Virus record (IMG/VR): IMGVR_UViG_3300029787_000286 | Span: 3,160 to 25,842 of that record | DNA from: a virus | Strand: one strand, 5' to 3' | DNA length: 22,683 nt | Part shown: in pieces, positions 13,318 through 22,681 of the stretch | Numbering within the stretch: the first letter of the stretch is position 1 | How the letters are laid out: the number at the start of each line of letters is the position of its first letter | Program-made: the position numbers and the translations under genes | Notes under the pieces: model-generated | Database searches by the model: none | The model's input: only the letters and a program-made list of their open reading frames with translations | Told to the model about the DNA's origin: nothing

Positions 13318-14317
13318 CAACTTCTCCTTGAGTAGATGTCACCGACAGTGTCGAAGTCGAAGCTCTTTTGTTTTTGCGGCGAGGCTTCTTTCGTGATGAG
13401 CCTCTCGATGTAGTACTTCGCTTTAAGGAGGTCTGAGACTCCTCCTTTCCTTCGGTGTCGGCTGACGTACTTGATGATGTTTCCTTCGTGGAATCCGAGG
13501 TCTTGGCTTTCGATGAGGTCGATGGGTTCGCACCCGTCTCCTCTGTAATGAAGTTCGAGTCCTTCAGTCTGATTCTCGTGGGCTTGATGGGGTGCCATAG
13601 TTTAATTTCCTTTGATTCCATGTCGTAATCTTCGTGACGCAGTATGCGTGTCAGCCTCGCTGTATTGATTGCGTCATCCTCTGTCAGGCCAGCATCCCTG
13701 TAGGCAGCAACAACCACGGCCCACATGTCGGGGAGATTTGATCTGACGTTAGCGAGTATCTTCTCTGCTTTCTTCGGGCCGACACGAGGGATGCCTTGGA
13801 TGCCATCTGCTCTGTCGCCTTGTAGAACTTGCAGCATCCAGAACCTGTCGGCCTGACCAACGGTAATGCGGCGTGGTGCGCGATCCTTGTCAGGATTGTA
13901 AACGTGACCTGGCACTGTCTGCATATCCTTGTCGATGGATACGATGACGCTGTTGGTTCCAGCGGTGTGATAGATTGCCATCACATCGTCAGCTTCAAGT
14001 CGATCTACTGCATAGCTCTCGTAGTTCTGCTTCATCCATTCACTGACTTCGTTGTACAGGAATGGCTTCTCGCCTTTGCGATTGGCTTTGTAGGTTGGGT
14101 CTACTTCCTTCCTAAAATTACCGGAACTGCTCCAGCAAAGAGCTACGCTGTTATGCTTTGATCCATTCATCCATTGATTGATGATGTGTCGGGCTGAGTC
14201 TTTGGCTTGCTGTGAACTCAGCGTCCAACCATATGATCCATCAGGCCACTCGATGTCATCCTGGGATACTGATGCCGCCCGATAAGCAATGATGTCTGCG
14301 TCTAATAGTGCTACCAT
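13304..14317 (-). CDS. 5'-3' exonuclease (T7 gp6-like, FEN family)
   Basis: A 337-residue ORF whose first ~240 residues form a FEN/PIN-type exonuclease (T7 gp6 is 300 aa). Metal-binding acidic residues are visible in LLDADIIAYR (D6, D8), RLEADDVMA (E108, D110, D111), SIDKDMQ (D129, D131) and GDRADGIQG (D168, D171), followed by the helix-hairpin-helix IPRVGPKKA. In T7 this enzyme removes RNA primers and degrades host DNA. From residue ~241 the tail is Ser/Thr/Lys-rich and low-complexity; this is precisely the part that overlaps the DUF3310 gene, so it is probably overprinted sequence of little constraint. The ATG overlaps the DNA polymerase stop (TAATG). Confidence 0.92.
   Translation of the reverse strand: MVALLDADIIAYRAASVSQDDIEWPDGSYGWTLSSQQAKDSARHIINQWMNGSKHNSVALCWSSSGNFRKEVDPTYKANRKGEKPFLYNEVSEWMKQNYESYAVDRLEADDVMAIYHTAGTNSVIVSIDKDMQTVPGHVYNPDKDRAPRRITVGQADRFWMLQVLQGDRADGIQGIPRVGPKKAEKILANVRSNLPDMWAVVVAAYRDAGLTEDDAINTARLTRILRHEDYDMESKEIKLWHPIKPTRIRLKDSNFITEETGANPSTSSKAKTSDSTKETSSSTSADTEGKEESQTSLKRSTTSRGSSRKKPRRKNKRASTSTLSVTSTQGEVDEVA
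13317..13598 (-). CDS. DUF3310 family protein, overlapping the exonuclease 3' end
   Basis: A 93-residue protein with the DUF3310 signature: a Y-x-G-x-G-C-E-P-I-D opening, a GFHEGNIIKYVSRHRRKGG core, then DLLKAKYYIERLI. These small proteins are frequent in phages, sometimes annotated as nucleotide kinase-like; the function is not established. The ATG has its own SD (AAAGGAAA, about 9 nt), and the stop overlaps the RNR ATG. The whole gene lies inside the 3' part of the exonuclease ORF in another frame, which indicates that this frame is the conserved one in this stretch. Confidence 0.88.
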   Translation of the reverse strand: MAPHQAHENQTEGLELHYRGDGCEPIDLIESQDLGFHEGNIIKYVSRHRRKGGVSDLLKAKYYIERLITKEASPQKQKSFDFDTVGDIYSRRS

Positions 14318-16020
14318 TAATGTGTCTCCGACCAGTTGTTACCAATGTTAAAGCTGCCGTCCATCTGGCAGCGCAGACCTAGCTCGTACCCAGCATCTCT
14401 AATGGCGACACACATGGTGTGTGCTACCAAATCAGCTACGTCTGGGTGTGCTTCGATTTGAACTTCGTCATGTACGTTGGCGCAGTAGGCCCAGCCCTCG
14501 TCGGGCGCACGGTGATCAAAGATGGTGAGTGCCTTCTTCATCACTGTTGCACCTGCACCTTGGATCAGTGTGTTAAGTGAAGAGTGAGGGGAGGGAGTGA
14601 CGAGCTTGTGCATGGTTAGACCTTTGAGGTAGCCACGAGTGGCGGCTGTCTGACGCACACGAGTGACAAGCGCATCAAGACCTTTGATGCCTTCGCTGAG
14701 TTTCTTGCGCGTAGCCTTGCCAGCCTTGACCTTTGATCCTTTGAACGGCTGATCGTCGTATACGATCTGACCAATCTTGCCGTCGCCAGCGCCGTACATG
14801 AATGCAAAGAACAAACGCTTCGCACTGTTACGATCTTGCAGTTCACATATTTCTTGATTGAAAGAATGAAAGTCACCGTTGACCACACGATCAGCGAACT
14901 CACCGTCATCGAACTTGGCGAGGTAATGTCCAAGCAGTCGAGCTTCCAGTCCATCAGCGTCCACACCCACAAGCTTCCAGCCATCACGAGGTATGAACAG
15001 TTCTCTCATGCGTGGGTCACTGTCGGCCTGTGCGACATTAGGATTGCGGTGCGTCATGCGCCCAGTACGAGCGCCAAGGGTGTTGACCTCACCGTGGATG
15101 CGACCATCCCGCACCAGCTTGAGCCACGCCTTGTCTGATCCGCTCAACATACCCAGCATCTTTTCGATGCGAAGGTACTTCACCATCGCCTTGGCTTCTG
15201 GGTACGGGAGGTTCTTTAGGATACCTTCGTTGATCTCAGGCTGGCCTGATGGTGTGAAGCGTTGGGGCTTCCATCCGTACTGTCGATGCAGCCTCGTGGC
15301 TATCTGCTGGCGTGATCCAGGGTTGAACTCCTGCACCTTGACCTTCGTCAGTGGCTGACCAGCCGTGTAACCATGTCGCTTGTTGTCAGCCTTGGGTGTG
15401 AACTCTTTGTCGCACACATAGATCGGCTGAAAGATTTCCTTTAGTTCCTGTTCAGCTTCTTGCCGTTCACCATACAGAGTGGCCGCAAGTTTCTCGGCGG
15501 CAGGTACATCGAAGCAGAACCCGTTGCGTTCTTGCCGCTGCATAATCCGTGCGACTTCATGTTCGAGTTCGATGGCTGGACTTGCAGCAATAGGGTGAAG
15601 CTTTTGATAGACCTTCAGCGTCACCTCACAGTCACGCTTGCAGTACTCCAACATCTCTTCGGAGTACTCAGTCCAGTCCTCATGCTCCCCCTTTGGAAAG
15701 CCCAACGCTGCACCCCATGCACGGAGAGAGTGACCACCCTCACGCTGTGGATCATCGAGCCGTGAAGCAATCAAGGTGTCGTAGATTTTTTCTTCGGGGA
15801 AATGGTAGCCAAACTTTGCGAGAGCAGGATGGTCAAACCCAATCCCATTATGCATAACCACACGGTCAGCAGAAGCAAGGCGATCAACACCCTCATGAAT
15901 CGAAGCTGAATCGTAGTTGTCGATCTGTCCCGTGTCTGCGTCGAGGGTCACGAGACACCATATGTTTTTCATGTCGGGTAACAGATCGTCCGTCTCTATG
16001 TCTGCTATTAATGTCTGCAT
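14317..16020 (-). CDS. DNA polymerase, family A (T7 gp5-like) with 3'-5' exonuclease
   Basis: A 567-residue replicative polymerase, shorter than T7 gp5 (704). The exonuclease domain is intact: IADIETDDLLPD (D7, E9), HNGIGFDHPAL (D63) and EYCKRDCEVT (Y126, D130). Polymerase motif A is VGVDADGLEARLLGHY (D354); motif B is DRNSAKRLFFAFMYGAGDGK (R397, K401, F405, Y409); motif C is ANVHDEVQ (H517-E519). F405 corresponds to E. coli Pol I F762, where T7 has Tyr. The region equivalent to the T7 thioredoxin-binding loop (between about residues 205 and 232) is much shorter. A clear SD (AAGGA, 8 nt) precedes the ATG, which lies inside the 3' end of the HNH-like ORF. Confidence 0.96.
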   Translation of the reverse strand: MQTLIADIETDDLLPDMKNIWCLVTLDADTGQIDNYDSASIHEGVDRLASADRVVMHNGIGFDHPALAKFGYHFPEEKIYDTLIASRLDDPQREGGHSLRAWGAALGFPKGEHEDWTEYSEEMLEYCKRDCEVTLKVYQKLHPIAASPAIELEHEVARIMQRQERNGFCFDVPAAEKLAATLYGERQEAEQELKEIFQPIYVCDKEFTPKADNKRHGYTAGQPLTKVKVQEFNPGSRQQIATRLHRQYGWKPQRFTPSGQPEINEGILKNLPYPEAKAMVKYLRIEKMLGMLSGSDKAWLKLVRDGRIHGEVNTLGARTGRMTHRNPNVAQADSDPRMRELFIPRDGWKLVGVDADGLEARLLGHYLAKFDDGEFADRVVNGDFHSFNQEICELQDRNSAKRLFFAFMYGAGDGKIGQIVYDDQPFKGSKVKAGKATRKKLSEGIKGLDALVTRVRQTAATRGYLKGLTMHKLVTPSPHSSLNTLIQGAGATVMKKALTIFDHRAPDEGWAYCANVHDEVQIEAHPDVADLVAHTMCVAIRDAGYELGLRCQMDGSFNIGNNWSETH

Positions 16021-16390
16021 CTAGTCGTTCCTTGTTAAGGTAGTGGTGTACACGCTGGGCAAATGTGTGAGCAGCTTCAGCTAATATGTCAGGGTCCGTC
16101 ATGGCACCCATCAAAGAATTAGCTAGTGATGAAATCACTCGCACGTTGCCAGGAATGTAGCCCCGTGCAGGATCAACACGATCCAGCGTTGGGCTGTTCC
16201 ATCGTGGGCCTCGCTGCCCACCCGTGCCTTCATATGATCTAAGTTGTATGTCCGTGAGAGGACAAAATTCTGGCACAACTATGTTGTCTAAGCTGAGAGC
16301 AAAGTCGATGTCTTTCTTCTTTGCTCTGTTTTTTGCATTACGAAGTAGTCTAACTTCTGTCCTCTCACCTCGACGGAGAGAGGAGGGCAT
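15893..16390 (-). CDS. HNH-like endonuclease
   Basis: A 165-residue ORF. Residues 1-120 carry a basic N-terminus followed by CPLTDIQL and the segment SPTLDRVDPARGYIPGNVRV-ISSLAN, a pattern (C-P-x-T ... S-x-D-R-x-D-x-x-x-G-Y-x-x-x-N-V ... N) shared by small phage HNH-superfamily nucleases without the full zinc Cys set. Possible roles are a free-standing homing nuclease or a DNA-processing enzyme in replication. It has an SD (AGGAG) overlapping the primase stop region. Its last ~42 codons (after about residue 123) overlap the start of DNA polymerase in another frame; this Arg/Asp/His-rich tail is probably not conserved. Function remains inferred. Confidence 0.72.
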   Translation of the reverse strand: MPSSLRRGERTEVRLLRNAKNRAKKKDIDFALSLDNIVVPEFCPLTDIQLRSYEGTGGQRGPRWNSPTLDRVDPARGYIPGNVRVISSLANSLMGAMTDPDILAEAAHTFAQRVHHYLNKERLDADINSRHRDGRSVTRHEKHMVSRDPRRRHGTDRQLRFSFDS

Positions 16391-19549: not shown

Positions 19550-19576
19550 TCTCTCTACACTAGGGGGAATTAATTG
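19550..19576 (-). promoter_or_regulatory. Candidate phage RNAP promoter for the replication operon
   Basis: The minus strand reads AATTCCCCCTAGTGTAGAGA within the 75-bp gap between the RNAP C-terminal gene and DUF6378. It shares CCC-M-CTA-S-K-GT-R-G with the site upstream of the capsid genes, with the same predicted +1 G (19558) and an AT-rich upstream stretch (ATTAATT). The leader would be 27 nt. T7-type phages place class II promoters just after the RNAP gene, which fits. No experimental support. Confidence 0.5.
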
Positions 19577-19606: not shown

Positions 19607-21259
19607 TTAACTGAAAAAATATGGTGCATCCGAAACGCTCTTAACATCGAAGGTGCCAAGCTCTGGTGGTGTAGGCAGAGCAACCTTGTGTCTCATTAGA
19701 TTGTTATGAAACTCTTCGAGTATCGGCCTGTCATATATTCGCACGAACTCACGGCGTATGATCTTGTTGAGCCTATCCACATCACAGGCGTGGACACCAA
19801 TGCTGTCATGTATACATGCCCAGGATGTAATAGGGTTCTCTTCACTGGCACCCATCATGACCACAGCCTGGAGGTGTGCAGCATCATGGGCATGGATGAT
19901 GTTAGGAGAAGAGGCCAGCGATTGCTTGCGTTTGTTTAAACCCATCGATGGTTCCTCGTACCAAAGCACAGCCTTCCCAAAGAGTGTCTTAACTTCCTTC
20001 TTGTTGTGATTGATGTACGCTTGTCTGATCTTCATGCCCATTGGTGTAGTAAATTCTAATGGGATGTTCTCTTCGGCCAGAGCAGTGGCGCAGCCCTTGA
20101 AGTACTCCATTACCTCCATTGGTTTGCGGATCGTCTCACCGAGAGATTCAACCAGTGCATCTCTCAAGTAGGTAGCGTTAGCAATCTTACTTCCAGGTAT
20201 GTGATCAAGGTGGCCGTCCTTGATGAACTGATCCCTCAATCCTTGCGGGGTCACAGAGTATGGGATGGTCATCACCCCTCGCTTTACCGTCGAGCGGGTA
20301 ATCTGACCGTGACAATTCTTAGCTGCTTCATCACTCTCTAGATCACGGGCAATGACCTTGTTAATCTCTTGAGCCTGGATGCCATAGATATCATAGCGTT
20401 CTGCACTCGATGTCATGTTGACAACCTCTGCTGCACGGGAGTCTCTTGACCATGCGCTCAAATGCTGTAGGCCAGAGGCCGTAGCGTCGAGGTTGATGGG
20501 CATGTGCGATACGAACTCTTCCTTGTGCGTTGCCCATCCCTCGTACTCCTTGCAAGCAGCGAGGAATTGAAAGGGTTCATCAGCCTGTGCCCAGAATCTC
20601 TCACCATCCAGCGGGTTGGCTGCGCAATCAAGTATCATTGGATCATTGTCAATAACCCACTGTACTCTTTCATCAAAAGAAAGCTTGTCCATTCCAAACG
20701 TATTAGCCAACCTGATAGCCAGCCAGTAGTGGCCTCGCTTGCCCAGCTTCTTACCTTCGGCAAACATGATGAGTCCACGAGACAGGTCATCGTTCACAAA
20801 ATTCAGGTCTTGTGACTGAGGGTACAGCCTACCTCTAAAGTCAGGGCAGTGCGGAATCCAAAACGTCTTGCCCTTGAGGTCATGCGCCATGTTAATCTTC
20901 CGAAACAGAGCTTCCCTCTGTCCCTGGAACTTGGCGTTAGCGGAGTGAACACGCTCTCGCTCTGCCTTGACGGACATCCGTTCCTTCTTGTCCATGTTCT
21001 CCCATACACCGTCAGGTACAGACGGAGGGAAGGCAAGCTGATCAGACGGTGGGATGTTGCCCAACGTCTCGTTCCTTGCGACTAGCTCTTCGACCACCTC
21101 AAGTACGTATGTGTTCACTAGTAGTGGTGTCTTACCTAGCACATCACAGACGTACATCACCTCGTCACTGATGGGCCGTCTCAGTGAGGCCGTGTGTTCA
21201 TGCAAGCCGTACTTTAAGAACGGCTCCTTGATCATATAGTAACCACCAACGTAACTCAT
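19607..21259 (-). CDS. T7-type RNA polymerase, C-terminal catalytic fragment
   Basis: The ATG at 21259 is fixed by a strong SD (AAGGAGA, 6 nt), and it overlaps the stop of the membrane-protein gene (ATGA). The 550-residue product starts SYVGGYYMIKEPFLKYG, aligning with T7 RNAP just after its PPKPW segment (about residue 280), and contains the catalytic set: DFRGRLYP (R144, Y146), INLDATASGLQHL (D258 = T7 D537), TRSTVKRGVMTIPYSV (K326, Y334 = K631, Y639), PNIIHAHDAAHL (His 457) and CIHDSIG (D485 = D812). The C-terminus (PYFFS) mirrors T7 FAFA. All polymerisation residues are here; the N-terminal domain is encoded separately upstream. It should be active only with that partner. Confidence 0.95.
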   Translation of the reverse strand: MSYVGGYYMIKEPFLKYGLHEHTASLRRPISDEVMYVCDVLGKTPLLVNTYVLEVVEELVARNETLGNIPPSDQLAFPPSVPDGVWENMDKKERMSVKAERERVHSANAKFQGQREALFRKINMAHDLKGKTFWIPHCPDFRGRLYPQSQDLNFVNDDLSRGLIMFAEGKKLGKRGHYWLAIRLANTFGMDKLSFDERVQWVIDNDPMILDCAANPLDGERFWAQADEPFQFLAACKEYEGWATHKEEFVSHMPINLDATASGLQHLSAWSRDSRAAEVVNMTSSAERYDIYGIQAQEINKVIARDLESDEAAKNCHGQITRSTVKRGVMTIPYSVTPQGLRDQFIKDGHLDHIPGSKIANATYLRDALVESLGETIRKPMEVMEYFKGCATALAEENIPLEFTTPMGMKIRQAYINHNKKEVKTLFGKAVLWYEEPSMGLNKRKQSLASSPNIIHAHDAAHLQAVVMMGASEENPITSWACIHDSIGVHACDVDRLNKIIRREFVRIYDRPILEEFHNNLMRHKVALPTPPELGTFDVKSVSDAPYFFS

Positions 21260-21450
21260 GCGCGTCTCCTTCGTATCCACCAGATAAGTTGTGCAAATGT
21301 TTGGATGGGCCAGACGATAGCTACTGCCCCAAAGATAAACACATTGATCTCTTCGTATGACAGGCCCGTGATATCCACGATCATGTAGAGTATCTCGACT
21401 GCCTTATCGAAGCTTACGTCAATCCATTCGATCCCACTGTTTGCTGCCAT
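21256..21450 (-). CDS. Small membrane protein between the RNAP halves
   Basis: I take the ATG at 21450, preceded by AGGAGA with 6 nt spacing; that SD sits at the stop codon of the RNAP N-terminal gene. The 64-residue product has an acidic N-terminal half, a single membrane segment (about residues 35-58, INVFIFGAVAIVWPIQTFAQ, then LIWW) and a basic end (IRRRRA), predicting the C-terminus in the cytoplasm. Short phage proteins with an E-E-I-N-V-x-I-F motif are widespread but uncharacterised. It has no twin membrane spans or holin-like features beyond size. Its stop overlaps the RNAP C-terminal start, so translation is coupled. Confidence 0.75.
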   Translation of the reverse strand: MAANSGIEWIDVSFDKAVEILYMIVDITGLSYEEINVFIFGAVAIVWPIQTFAQLIWWIRRRRA

Positions 21451-21574
21451 GTGTGTCTCTCCTATCAAGCTGCTTGCGTTTGTTTCTGTCGTAGTGCCGC
21501 CGCGATTTGACTATCCGCTTCCGATACTTCGGACTTCGTAAGTCCCTCGCCACTGGATTTACCTTTCCCTTCAT
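21419..21574 (-). CDS. ArfA-like small basic protein, overlapping the RNAP N-terminal gene
   Basis: A 51-residue, highly basic protein in a different frame from the RNAP fragment. The ATG at 21574 has a good SD (GGAG, 5 nt). The sequence NPVARDLRSPKYRKRIVKSR, followed by YDRNKRK, resembles the core of alternative ribosome-rescue factor ArfA (E. coli: A-L-L-H-D-P-L-F-R-Q-R-V-E-x-x-K-K ... Y-x-R-K), and similar short proteins are common in phages. ArfA frees ribosomes stalled on mRNAs lacking a stop codon by recruiting RF2. Whether the phage version rescues ribosomes or has another purpose is unknown. The gene overlaps both the RNAP N-terminal tail and the membrane protein start. Confidence 0.68.
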   Translation of the reverse strand: MKGKVNPVARDLRSPKYRKRIVKSRRHYDRNKRKQLDRRDTHGSKQWDRMD

Positions 21575-22439
21575 GCCATCTCCATTCCGCTGGCTCACAC
21601 AGCATGGGTAACAGGAAGGGACGATTGAACTCGCACCTCCTGTGATCCTGCTCGATGGCATCACGTGCTATCTGTGTAAGCTTCACTGTTTTCTCTGTGT
21701 GTCTTGTTCGACCATAGCCTCGACCAACGAGGGACATCTCGAACCATCCGTTGCCATGCCGCACCAGTGTATCGAGGCACTTCATGCCTACGTGCAGCTT
21801 GACCTCCTTCGCCCAGTCCAGGCGATCAAGGTCAGTGGACAGTCGCATGAACTTACGAGCGGCACGAGTGTCGATGCGCTTGCAATTCTTTGTCATCACC
21901 TTGAATAGGTTGATACTGCCTGACTCACGTGCCTCTCGATACTGTCGCTCTTTCCATAGATCGAACTCACGTTCCATCTTTATGTTAGCACCAATGAGCA
22001 GAGCCGCTGCTGTCCAAGGTCGAGAGTGTGATACCTCTGGCTGTAGTCCAGCAAGTACAGTGCGGATCGTGACTGCTGCTATCTTCTCGGCATCGAGGCA
22101 CAGGATAGGGAGCCACCATATAGCAGTGTGCCCCTTCTTACTGAACCCAAGCTGGGCTGCTGCCTGTTCCTCCTTGATGCCAGCAACGAGAGGTCTCATG
22201 CACTGGTCTACCAGCTTGGACCCTACGTCAGTATCAGCAAAGGCACTGCGTCCCGTCTCACTGAACTTGCTGACATCCTTGTTCAATTCATTCTGATATC
22301 TCTGGACACCACGCTCGATGCCACTGGTCTCCCACTCTACATTACGTGCAATGGTAGCCTCCCTCTCCTCGAATGTTCGAGGCGAAGCTTGTGTCACGTA
22401 TGTGTCACAACTATGTCCTTGATATATATACTTTTTCAT
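21465..22439 (-). CDS. T7-type RNA polymerase, N-terminal fragment
   Basis: A 324-residue protein. Residues ~50-288 align with the T7 RNAP N-terminal domain: FSETGRSAFADTDVGSKLVD, the AAVTIRTVLAGL helix, the ALLIGANIKMEREFDL segment (T7 ASAIGRAIEDE), RLDWAKEVKLHVGMKCLDTL (T7 HVGVRCIEML) and PFLLPMLCEPAEW (T7 PPKPW). That domain handles promoter AT-rich recognition, melting and nascent RNA. The fragment stops being RNAP-like at W288; the last 36 residues are a low-complexity K/S/Q/A tail that coincides with the start of the ArfA-like gene. AGGA lies 7 nt after a CCACTGG spacer upstream of the ATG. With the 550-residue fragment downstream the total (about 840 RNAP residues) nearly equals T7 RNAP (883). 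Confidence 0.92.
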   Translation of the reverse strand: MKKYIYQGHSCDTYVTQASPRTFEEREATIARNVEWETSGIERGVQRYQNELNKDVSKFSETGRSAFADTDVGSKLVDQCMRPLVAGIKEEQAAAQLGFSKKGHTAIWWLPILCLDAEKIAAVTIRTVLAGLQPEVSHSRPWTAAALLIGANIKMEREFDLWKERQYREARESGSINLFKVMTKNCKRIDTRAARKFMRLSTDLDRLDWAKEVKLHVGMKCLDTLVRHGNGWFEMSLVGRGYGRTRHTEKTVKLTQIARDAIEQDHRRCEFNRPFLLPMLCEPAEWRWHEGKGKSSGEGLTKSEVSEADSQIAAALRQKQTQAA

Positions 22440-22624: not shown

Positions 22625-22681
22625 TCATTGTGTCTTGAAAGCAGCATCAAAAGTGGCTGTTGCTTTCCGTGTTAGATCGTC
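22625..22681 (-). CDS. 3' end of a gene, possibly integrase (partial)
   Basis: Only the last 18 codons are inside the window: the minus strand encodes DDLTRKATATFDAAFKTQ followed by TGA. A helical, amphipathic C-terminus of this kind just upstream of an att site and RNAP gene would fit the end of a tyrosine integrase, which in integrase-bearing marine T7-like phages lies directly before the RNAP gene. There is far too little sequence for a family call. The 185 bp between this stop and the RNAP start hold the att site. Confidence 0.35.
   Translation of the reverse strand, partial: DDLTRKATATFDAAFKTQ

Follow-up and report, generated by a model that had tools for sequence, protein, structure and literature searches.

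The window, by which we mean the whole stretch of 22,683 nucleotides that was analysed, comes from a partial viral record of 25.8 kb. In minus-strand order from the contig end, it holds the end of an integrase gene, the 3′ half of a tRNA-Met-like gene, the N-terminal half of a T7-type RNA polymerase (RNAP; N half), a small basic ORF, a membrane-protein gene and the C-terminal half of the polymerase (C half), at the following coordinates:

22625..22681, minus strand: C-terminal end of a tyrosine integrase, truncated at the contig end; it reads DDLTRKATATFDAAFKTQ followed by a stop and resembles the end of the integrase of the relative L002
22502..22551, plus strand: 3′ half of a tRNA-Met-like gene, read from the sequence; probable attP core
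21465..22439, minus strand: RNAP N half, 324 aa, T7-type N-terminal/promoter-opening domain (PF14700 RPOL_N, E 2e-11)
21465..21575, minus strand: C-terminal tail of the N half without RNAP homology, which shares its DNA with the small basic ORF in another frame
21419..21574, minus strand: small basic ORF, ~51 aa, phrog_20887-like, overlapping the N-half end; Shine-Dalgarno GGAG before the ATG at 21574
21256..21450, minus strand: small hydrophobic protein, presumably a membrane protein, 64 aa, motif GxSYEEINV, conserved in L002-L005
19607..21259, minus strand: RNAP C half, 550 aa, ATG at 21259 (PF00940 RNA_pol, E 3e-100)
19553..19568, minus strand: conserved non-coding block TCCCNNTARTGTAGAG, immediately 3′ of the C half, with an exact match in the window and L002-L005

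The near-complete relative L002 (41.8 kb) carries an entire integrase at 226-1323, in a position matching the window's integrase end, and the tRNA-Met-like 3′ half is also found there, between the integrase and the N half. No complete tRNA was found in the window by ARAGORN. Beyond the C half lie genes for a ssDNA-binding protein, RusA, a primase/helicase, DNA polymerase, an exonuclease, RNR and podovirus structural proteins (head-tail adaptor, scaffold, major head and tail proteins). The integrase and the probable attP in a tRNA 3′ end beside the RNAP, together with the podovirus gene set, characterize a temperate Autographiviridae-like phage. A host-prophage scan of genome contigs returned nothing but three distant RNAPs (27-32% identity). 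On the minus strand, an endonuclease-like ORF (15893-16390) and the DNA polymerase ORF (14317-16020) share ~128 nt at the start of the latter. The TCCCNNTARTGTAGAG block, which has one match only within the window, is a candidate phage promoter; its position corresponds to that of the first T7 promoter after gene 1. Repeated promoter-like motifs were also sought in the window, and no convincing family was found.

The two RNAP ORFs tile one profile, with the N half matching positions 2-251 of phrog_414 and the C half positions 248-816. Membership of the T7-type RNAPs is indicated by the RPOL_N and RNA_pol domains, which jointly cover the family profile, and by the presence of the catalytic motifs. 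The N half covers about T7 residues 14-279 and ends in a tail of ~36 aa; the C half, with the thumb, palm, fingers, specificity loop and C-terminal foot, covers about residues 280-883. RNAP homology in the N half stops at a conserved EPxxW motif (W286/W288), the C half begins MSYVGGYYMIKEP about 315-316 bp further downstream, and the homology is seamless over this gap in the alignment. The initial annotation had placed the break at T7 residues ~275-280; alignment with T7 and with unsplit phages gives 279/280, within the conserved P-P-x-x-W ... G-G-Y-Y linker. Its statements that the summed length is that of a full enzyme and that the catalytic residues are intact also agree with our data. The halves add up to 874 aa (883 in T7), and D258 (motif A), K326 and Y334 (motif B) and H484-D485 (motif C), equated to T7 via the motifs, are invariant in 18 relatives, as are the DxxGR residues D140-R144 of the C half. 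AlphaFold models were built chain by chain. That of the N half, at moderate confidence (pLDDT 71), matches T7 RNAP residues ~16-282 with Z 16-17.6, and that of the C half (pLDDT 89) matches residues 273-883 of 1h38 with Z 42; the separately modelled halves fit complementary parts of T7 RNAP.

The N and C halves stand in different frames, each with its own start, and do not form the single polypeptide of a T7-type RNAP. An AAGGAG located 6-7 nt ahead of the C-half ATG provides a strong Shine-Dalgarno sequence, in line with the proposal that this half has its own initiation signals. Coupling through ATGA overlaps had been suggested for both halves and applies to one of them: the stop of the membrane-protein ORF overlaps the C-half start in this way, but the N half stops 14 nt ahead of the membrane-protein ATG, its last ~36 codons being overprinted on the basic ORF. 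The N half of L020 has a similar tail, although no basic ORF is present there.

The contents of the gap vary among the relatives that share the split. The basic ORF and the membrane protein occupy it in the window, L002 and L003, whereas in L004 (1204-1662) and L005 (1003-1461) the basic domain is longer and fused to a MazG-like pyrophosphohydrolase domain, and the membrane protein is again present. A Bro-N/KilAC antirepressor was found in the gap of L120, and small ORFs of unknown function in those of L022, L113 and L118, the last being the largest gap (~970 bp). Gene-free gaps were found in L020 (22 bp), L114 (~28 bp) and L026 (an ATGA overlap). The description of two inserted genes therefore holds for the window and not in general, and the insert is not the cause of the split, since L020 and L114 are equally split. 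The membrane-protein gene has a dN/dS of 0.02-0.09 in close pairs. Its product is homologous to a protein encoded between the integrase and the RNAP in the unsplit sisters L013, L014, L021, L023 and L029 (hhalign probability 97%, E 2e-10), and a search of the L002 record with a profile of the sisters' protein retrieves precisely this gene (E 8e-10). Over the history of the split, at least this gene has thus shifted its position with respect to the RNAP. A phage search in INPHARED gave no relatives of the gap membrane proteins.

The same split, here called site A, was identified in at least 12 other viral contigs (13 counting the window), which confirms that it is real. Five of them form a close set of independent metagenome contigs at about 65-88% identity (L002, L003, L004, L005 and L020), and seven a distant set at 34-43% (L022, L026, L113, L114, L115, L118 and L120). 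In the split relatives the halves always co-occur, adjacent and in the same order, and a good Shine-Dalgarno sequence precedes nearly all C-half starts. Each of the near-complete relatives checked has a single N half and a single C half, and none has a second intact RNAP. The window's own record has one C half; as this record is partial, a second RNAP elsewhere is excluded via the relatives only. Both halves are under strong purifying selection, with dN/dS of 0.035-0.075 for the N half and 0.052-0.083 for the C half in the pairs with estimable dS, where dS is saturated or near-saturated. The small basic ORF, which overlaps the N half, was left out of this reading. These values (0.03-0.08 in both halves) are far from the value near 1 that the initial annotation had named as a sign of decay, and its view that the locus is not decaying stands. 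All site-A examples are metagenome or IMG/VR contigs and none is a named isolate; N-half searches among named phages matched 5 and 3 records, and all of these, among the matches listed, are annotated with one RNA polymerase.

A two-gene phage RNAP is already a known kind of arrangement; what is new here is another cut site, the gap genes and the breadth of split sites. Chen et al. (2019, PMC6811365) described the RNAP genes of HTVC019P-group III pelagiphages as "fragmented into two parts". The split members are HTVC025P, HTVC041P, Gjalp and Eyrgjafa (genus Fussvirus), S30C28 and uv-Fonsiphage-EPL; two RNAP genes are annotated in the GenBank records of the first five. As in the window, the T7-type RNAP is encoded by two genes, cut between the N-terminal domain and the core, 3′ of the integrase, and an RNAP in two parts downstream of the integrase is common to the window, L002 and the cultured phages of this group. 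In GenBank, HTVC025P (MH598799) even has two small genes between the N and C halves, as the window does, so the initial statement that T7-type phages were not known to combine such a split with an inserted gene pair does not hold. The two cases differ nonetheless. The group III cut lies at T7 ~291/292 (site B), ~12 residues downstream of that in the window, the gap genes are unrelated, and the group is a separate clade (starred branches in the tree) with HTVC011P as unsplit relative and the window outside it. Since HTVC025P, HTVC041P, Gjalp and Eyrgjafa live in culture, a two-gene T7-type RNAP cut at nearly the window's site is compatible with growth.

The RNAPII of phage N4 (Schitoviridae) is a purified T7-like heterodimer, in which gp15 comprises the N-terminal part, the thumb and DX2GR, and gp16 the palm and fingers (PMC4496689). 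There too a T7-like enzyme is covered by two adjacent genes, the heterodimer being inferred for the window, but the N4 split lies behind DxxGR at T7 ~453, and gp16 (6dt7_B) matches only residues 174-550 of the window's C half (Z 27). T7 RNAP itself stays functional when bisected at five surface seams and co-expressed (Segall-Shapiro et al. 2014, PMC4299498); those splits, at sites that include 67, 179 and 601, are artificial and the window's is natural. Other integrase-bearing autographiviruses (Roseobacter phage CRP-113, Pelagibacter phage HTVC109P and Rhizobium phage RHEph21) share the order integrase, gap and RNAP and the enzyme family; unlike in the window, their RNAP is one contiguous gene. 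No published discussion of split phage RNAPs other than those on N4 and in PMC6811365 was found in the open-licence literature.

Besides that of N4 (~453), four natural split sites were observed, at T7 ~279 (A), ~291 (B), ~300 (C) and ~415. Site C characterizes a clade of uncultivated phages that is widespread; 31 contigs show the N half immediately upstream:

Site-C contigs: L063, L091, L169-L171, L173-L178, L180-L195, L197-L200

Its junction reads ...LPxVRRR and a stop, then MSLKTHL or MRKSS..., with halves that abut or overlap, and the split is seemingly undescribed so far. L123 (297-2908) and L124 (3122-5760) are continuous at site A and split at T7 ~415, just before DxxGR; the RNAP is divided there into ORFs of 426 and 439 aa, both contigs are cut at the same place, and they belong to the clade of site A. 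In L103 (AP013541, uncultured phage MedDCM-OCT-S42-C7), the RNAP gene is unannotated and runs past the record end.

Split and unsplit RNAPs are strongly clustered in the C-half trees, and sites A, B and C occupy different parts. The site-A clade is supported at 99/98, and the unsplit L013 group is nested inside it (100/97-98). A single clade of all site-A splits was rejected by the AU test (p 0.008, then 9e-6 with more rows), because of this nested group. The split at site A is ancient, and by parsimony only, one fission followed by one or two re-fusions (2-3 changes) is preferred over many separate fissions. The unsplit L013 subgroup appears to have re-fused. The unsplit RNAPs of L013, L021, L023 and L029 have a linker longer than that of T7, a possible trace of natural re-fusion.

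Uninterrupted relatives had been named in advance as a finding that would count against the split. Such sisters exist, L013 among them, but the split is not thereby an artefact, as the phylogeny places them inside the split clade, where they look re-fused. That every site-A case comes from a metagenome or IMG/VR contig could still suggest an assembly or sequencing error. We find this hardly credible, given that the identical junction occurs in independent assemblies at about 65-88% identity with differing gap contents, and that no unsplit reads were found by Chen et al. (PMC6811365) for the analogous site-B split. Decay usually starts with one break, and the RNAP might be a decaying pseudogene in a phage relying on the host RNAP alone; a dN/dS of 0.035-0.083 in pairs with saturated or near-saturated dS, the invariant catalytic motifs and the retention of the split across lineages at 34-43% identity make this very improbable.

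Only slightly more probable is the restoration of a joined chain over the gap by a self-splicing intron, an intein, bypass or frameshifting. Introns and inteins are frequent in phage genes, and the seamless homology would fit. Yet an Rfam scan of the window gave no match, and thus no known intron family; the gap, whose contents are unrelated between contigs, ranges from an ATGA overlap (L026) over ~22-28 bp (L020, L114) to ~970 bp (L118); selection also acts on the membrane-protein gene within it; and the two ORFs lie in different frames, the N half ending in a tail and stop of its own and the C half having a separate Shine-Dalgarno sequence. The halves could also have separate jobs: the C half might work without its partner, perhaps aided by a different initiation factor, and the N half might act as a regulator or titrate promoters. 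N4 RNAPII indeed has a reduced N-terminal domain and requires cofactors (PMC4496689), and the window's N half diverges faster at depth, with 65% identity to L004 compared with 73% for the C half. We consider such a division of labour unlikely, because close pairs show equal constraint on both halves, and the two never occur apart and keep their adjacency and order throughout.

The N and C ORFs therefore most probably encode two non-covalently associated chains of one T7-type RNA polymerase, whose assembly and activity we infer; a working two-chain enzyme, thought plausible from the start, stays the best reading. In T7 RNAP, the transition from initiation to elongation involves rotation and refolding of the N-terminal ~266 residues, while the core stays in place. 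The break lies in a surface linker just behind this moving domain, and the modules can therefore become unlinked; with the promoter elements in the N half and the core in the C half, a two-chain polymerase is the most economical reading. Both halves would be translated off a shared early transcript, each from its own ribosome-binding site. The N half would supply the promoter-contacting and promoter-opening (melting) domain, whose T7 counterpart refolds from initiation to elongation, and the C half the catalytic core and specificity loop. The chains would join after translation without a peptide bond and then transcribe the phage genes. The gap (~315 bp) may have become a cargo site, where small genes would be co-expressed with the polymerase: those for the membrane protein and for the basic protein or MazG-like enzyme, and elsewhere one for an antirepressor.

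A broader scheme, which we offer as speculation and think rather doubtful as a whole, is that fission of T7-type RNAPs is recurrent, reversible and adaptive in temperate autographiviruses. The four sites would have arisen separately, with site A already present in the ancestor of a deep clade and re-fusion following in some of its members; the gap would remain permanently available to early cargo genes, regulatory or metabolic, and the detached N half a limiting, sigma-like subunit controlling the exit from lysogeny.

T7 RNAP is the textbook one-chain polymerase. The splits described here suggest that nature repeatedly cuts this enzyme type within one short linker and that the cut state lasts over deep time, yielding ready-made two-chain enzymes. 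These could be used to probe the control that the N-terminal domain exerts over promoter opening and the elongation switch, and natural split polymerases are possibly useful in gene circuits. For annotation, two-gene phage RNAPs are to be read as halves of one enzyme, not as fragments or duplicates. For the phage itself, loose chain ends may bring dosage control, a slot for early genes, or no benefit at all.
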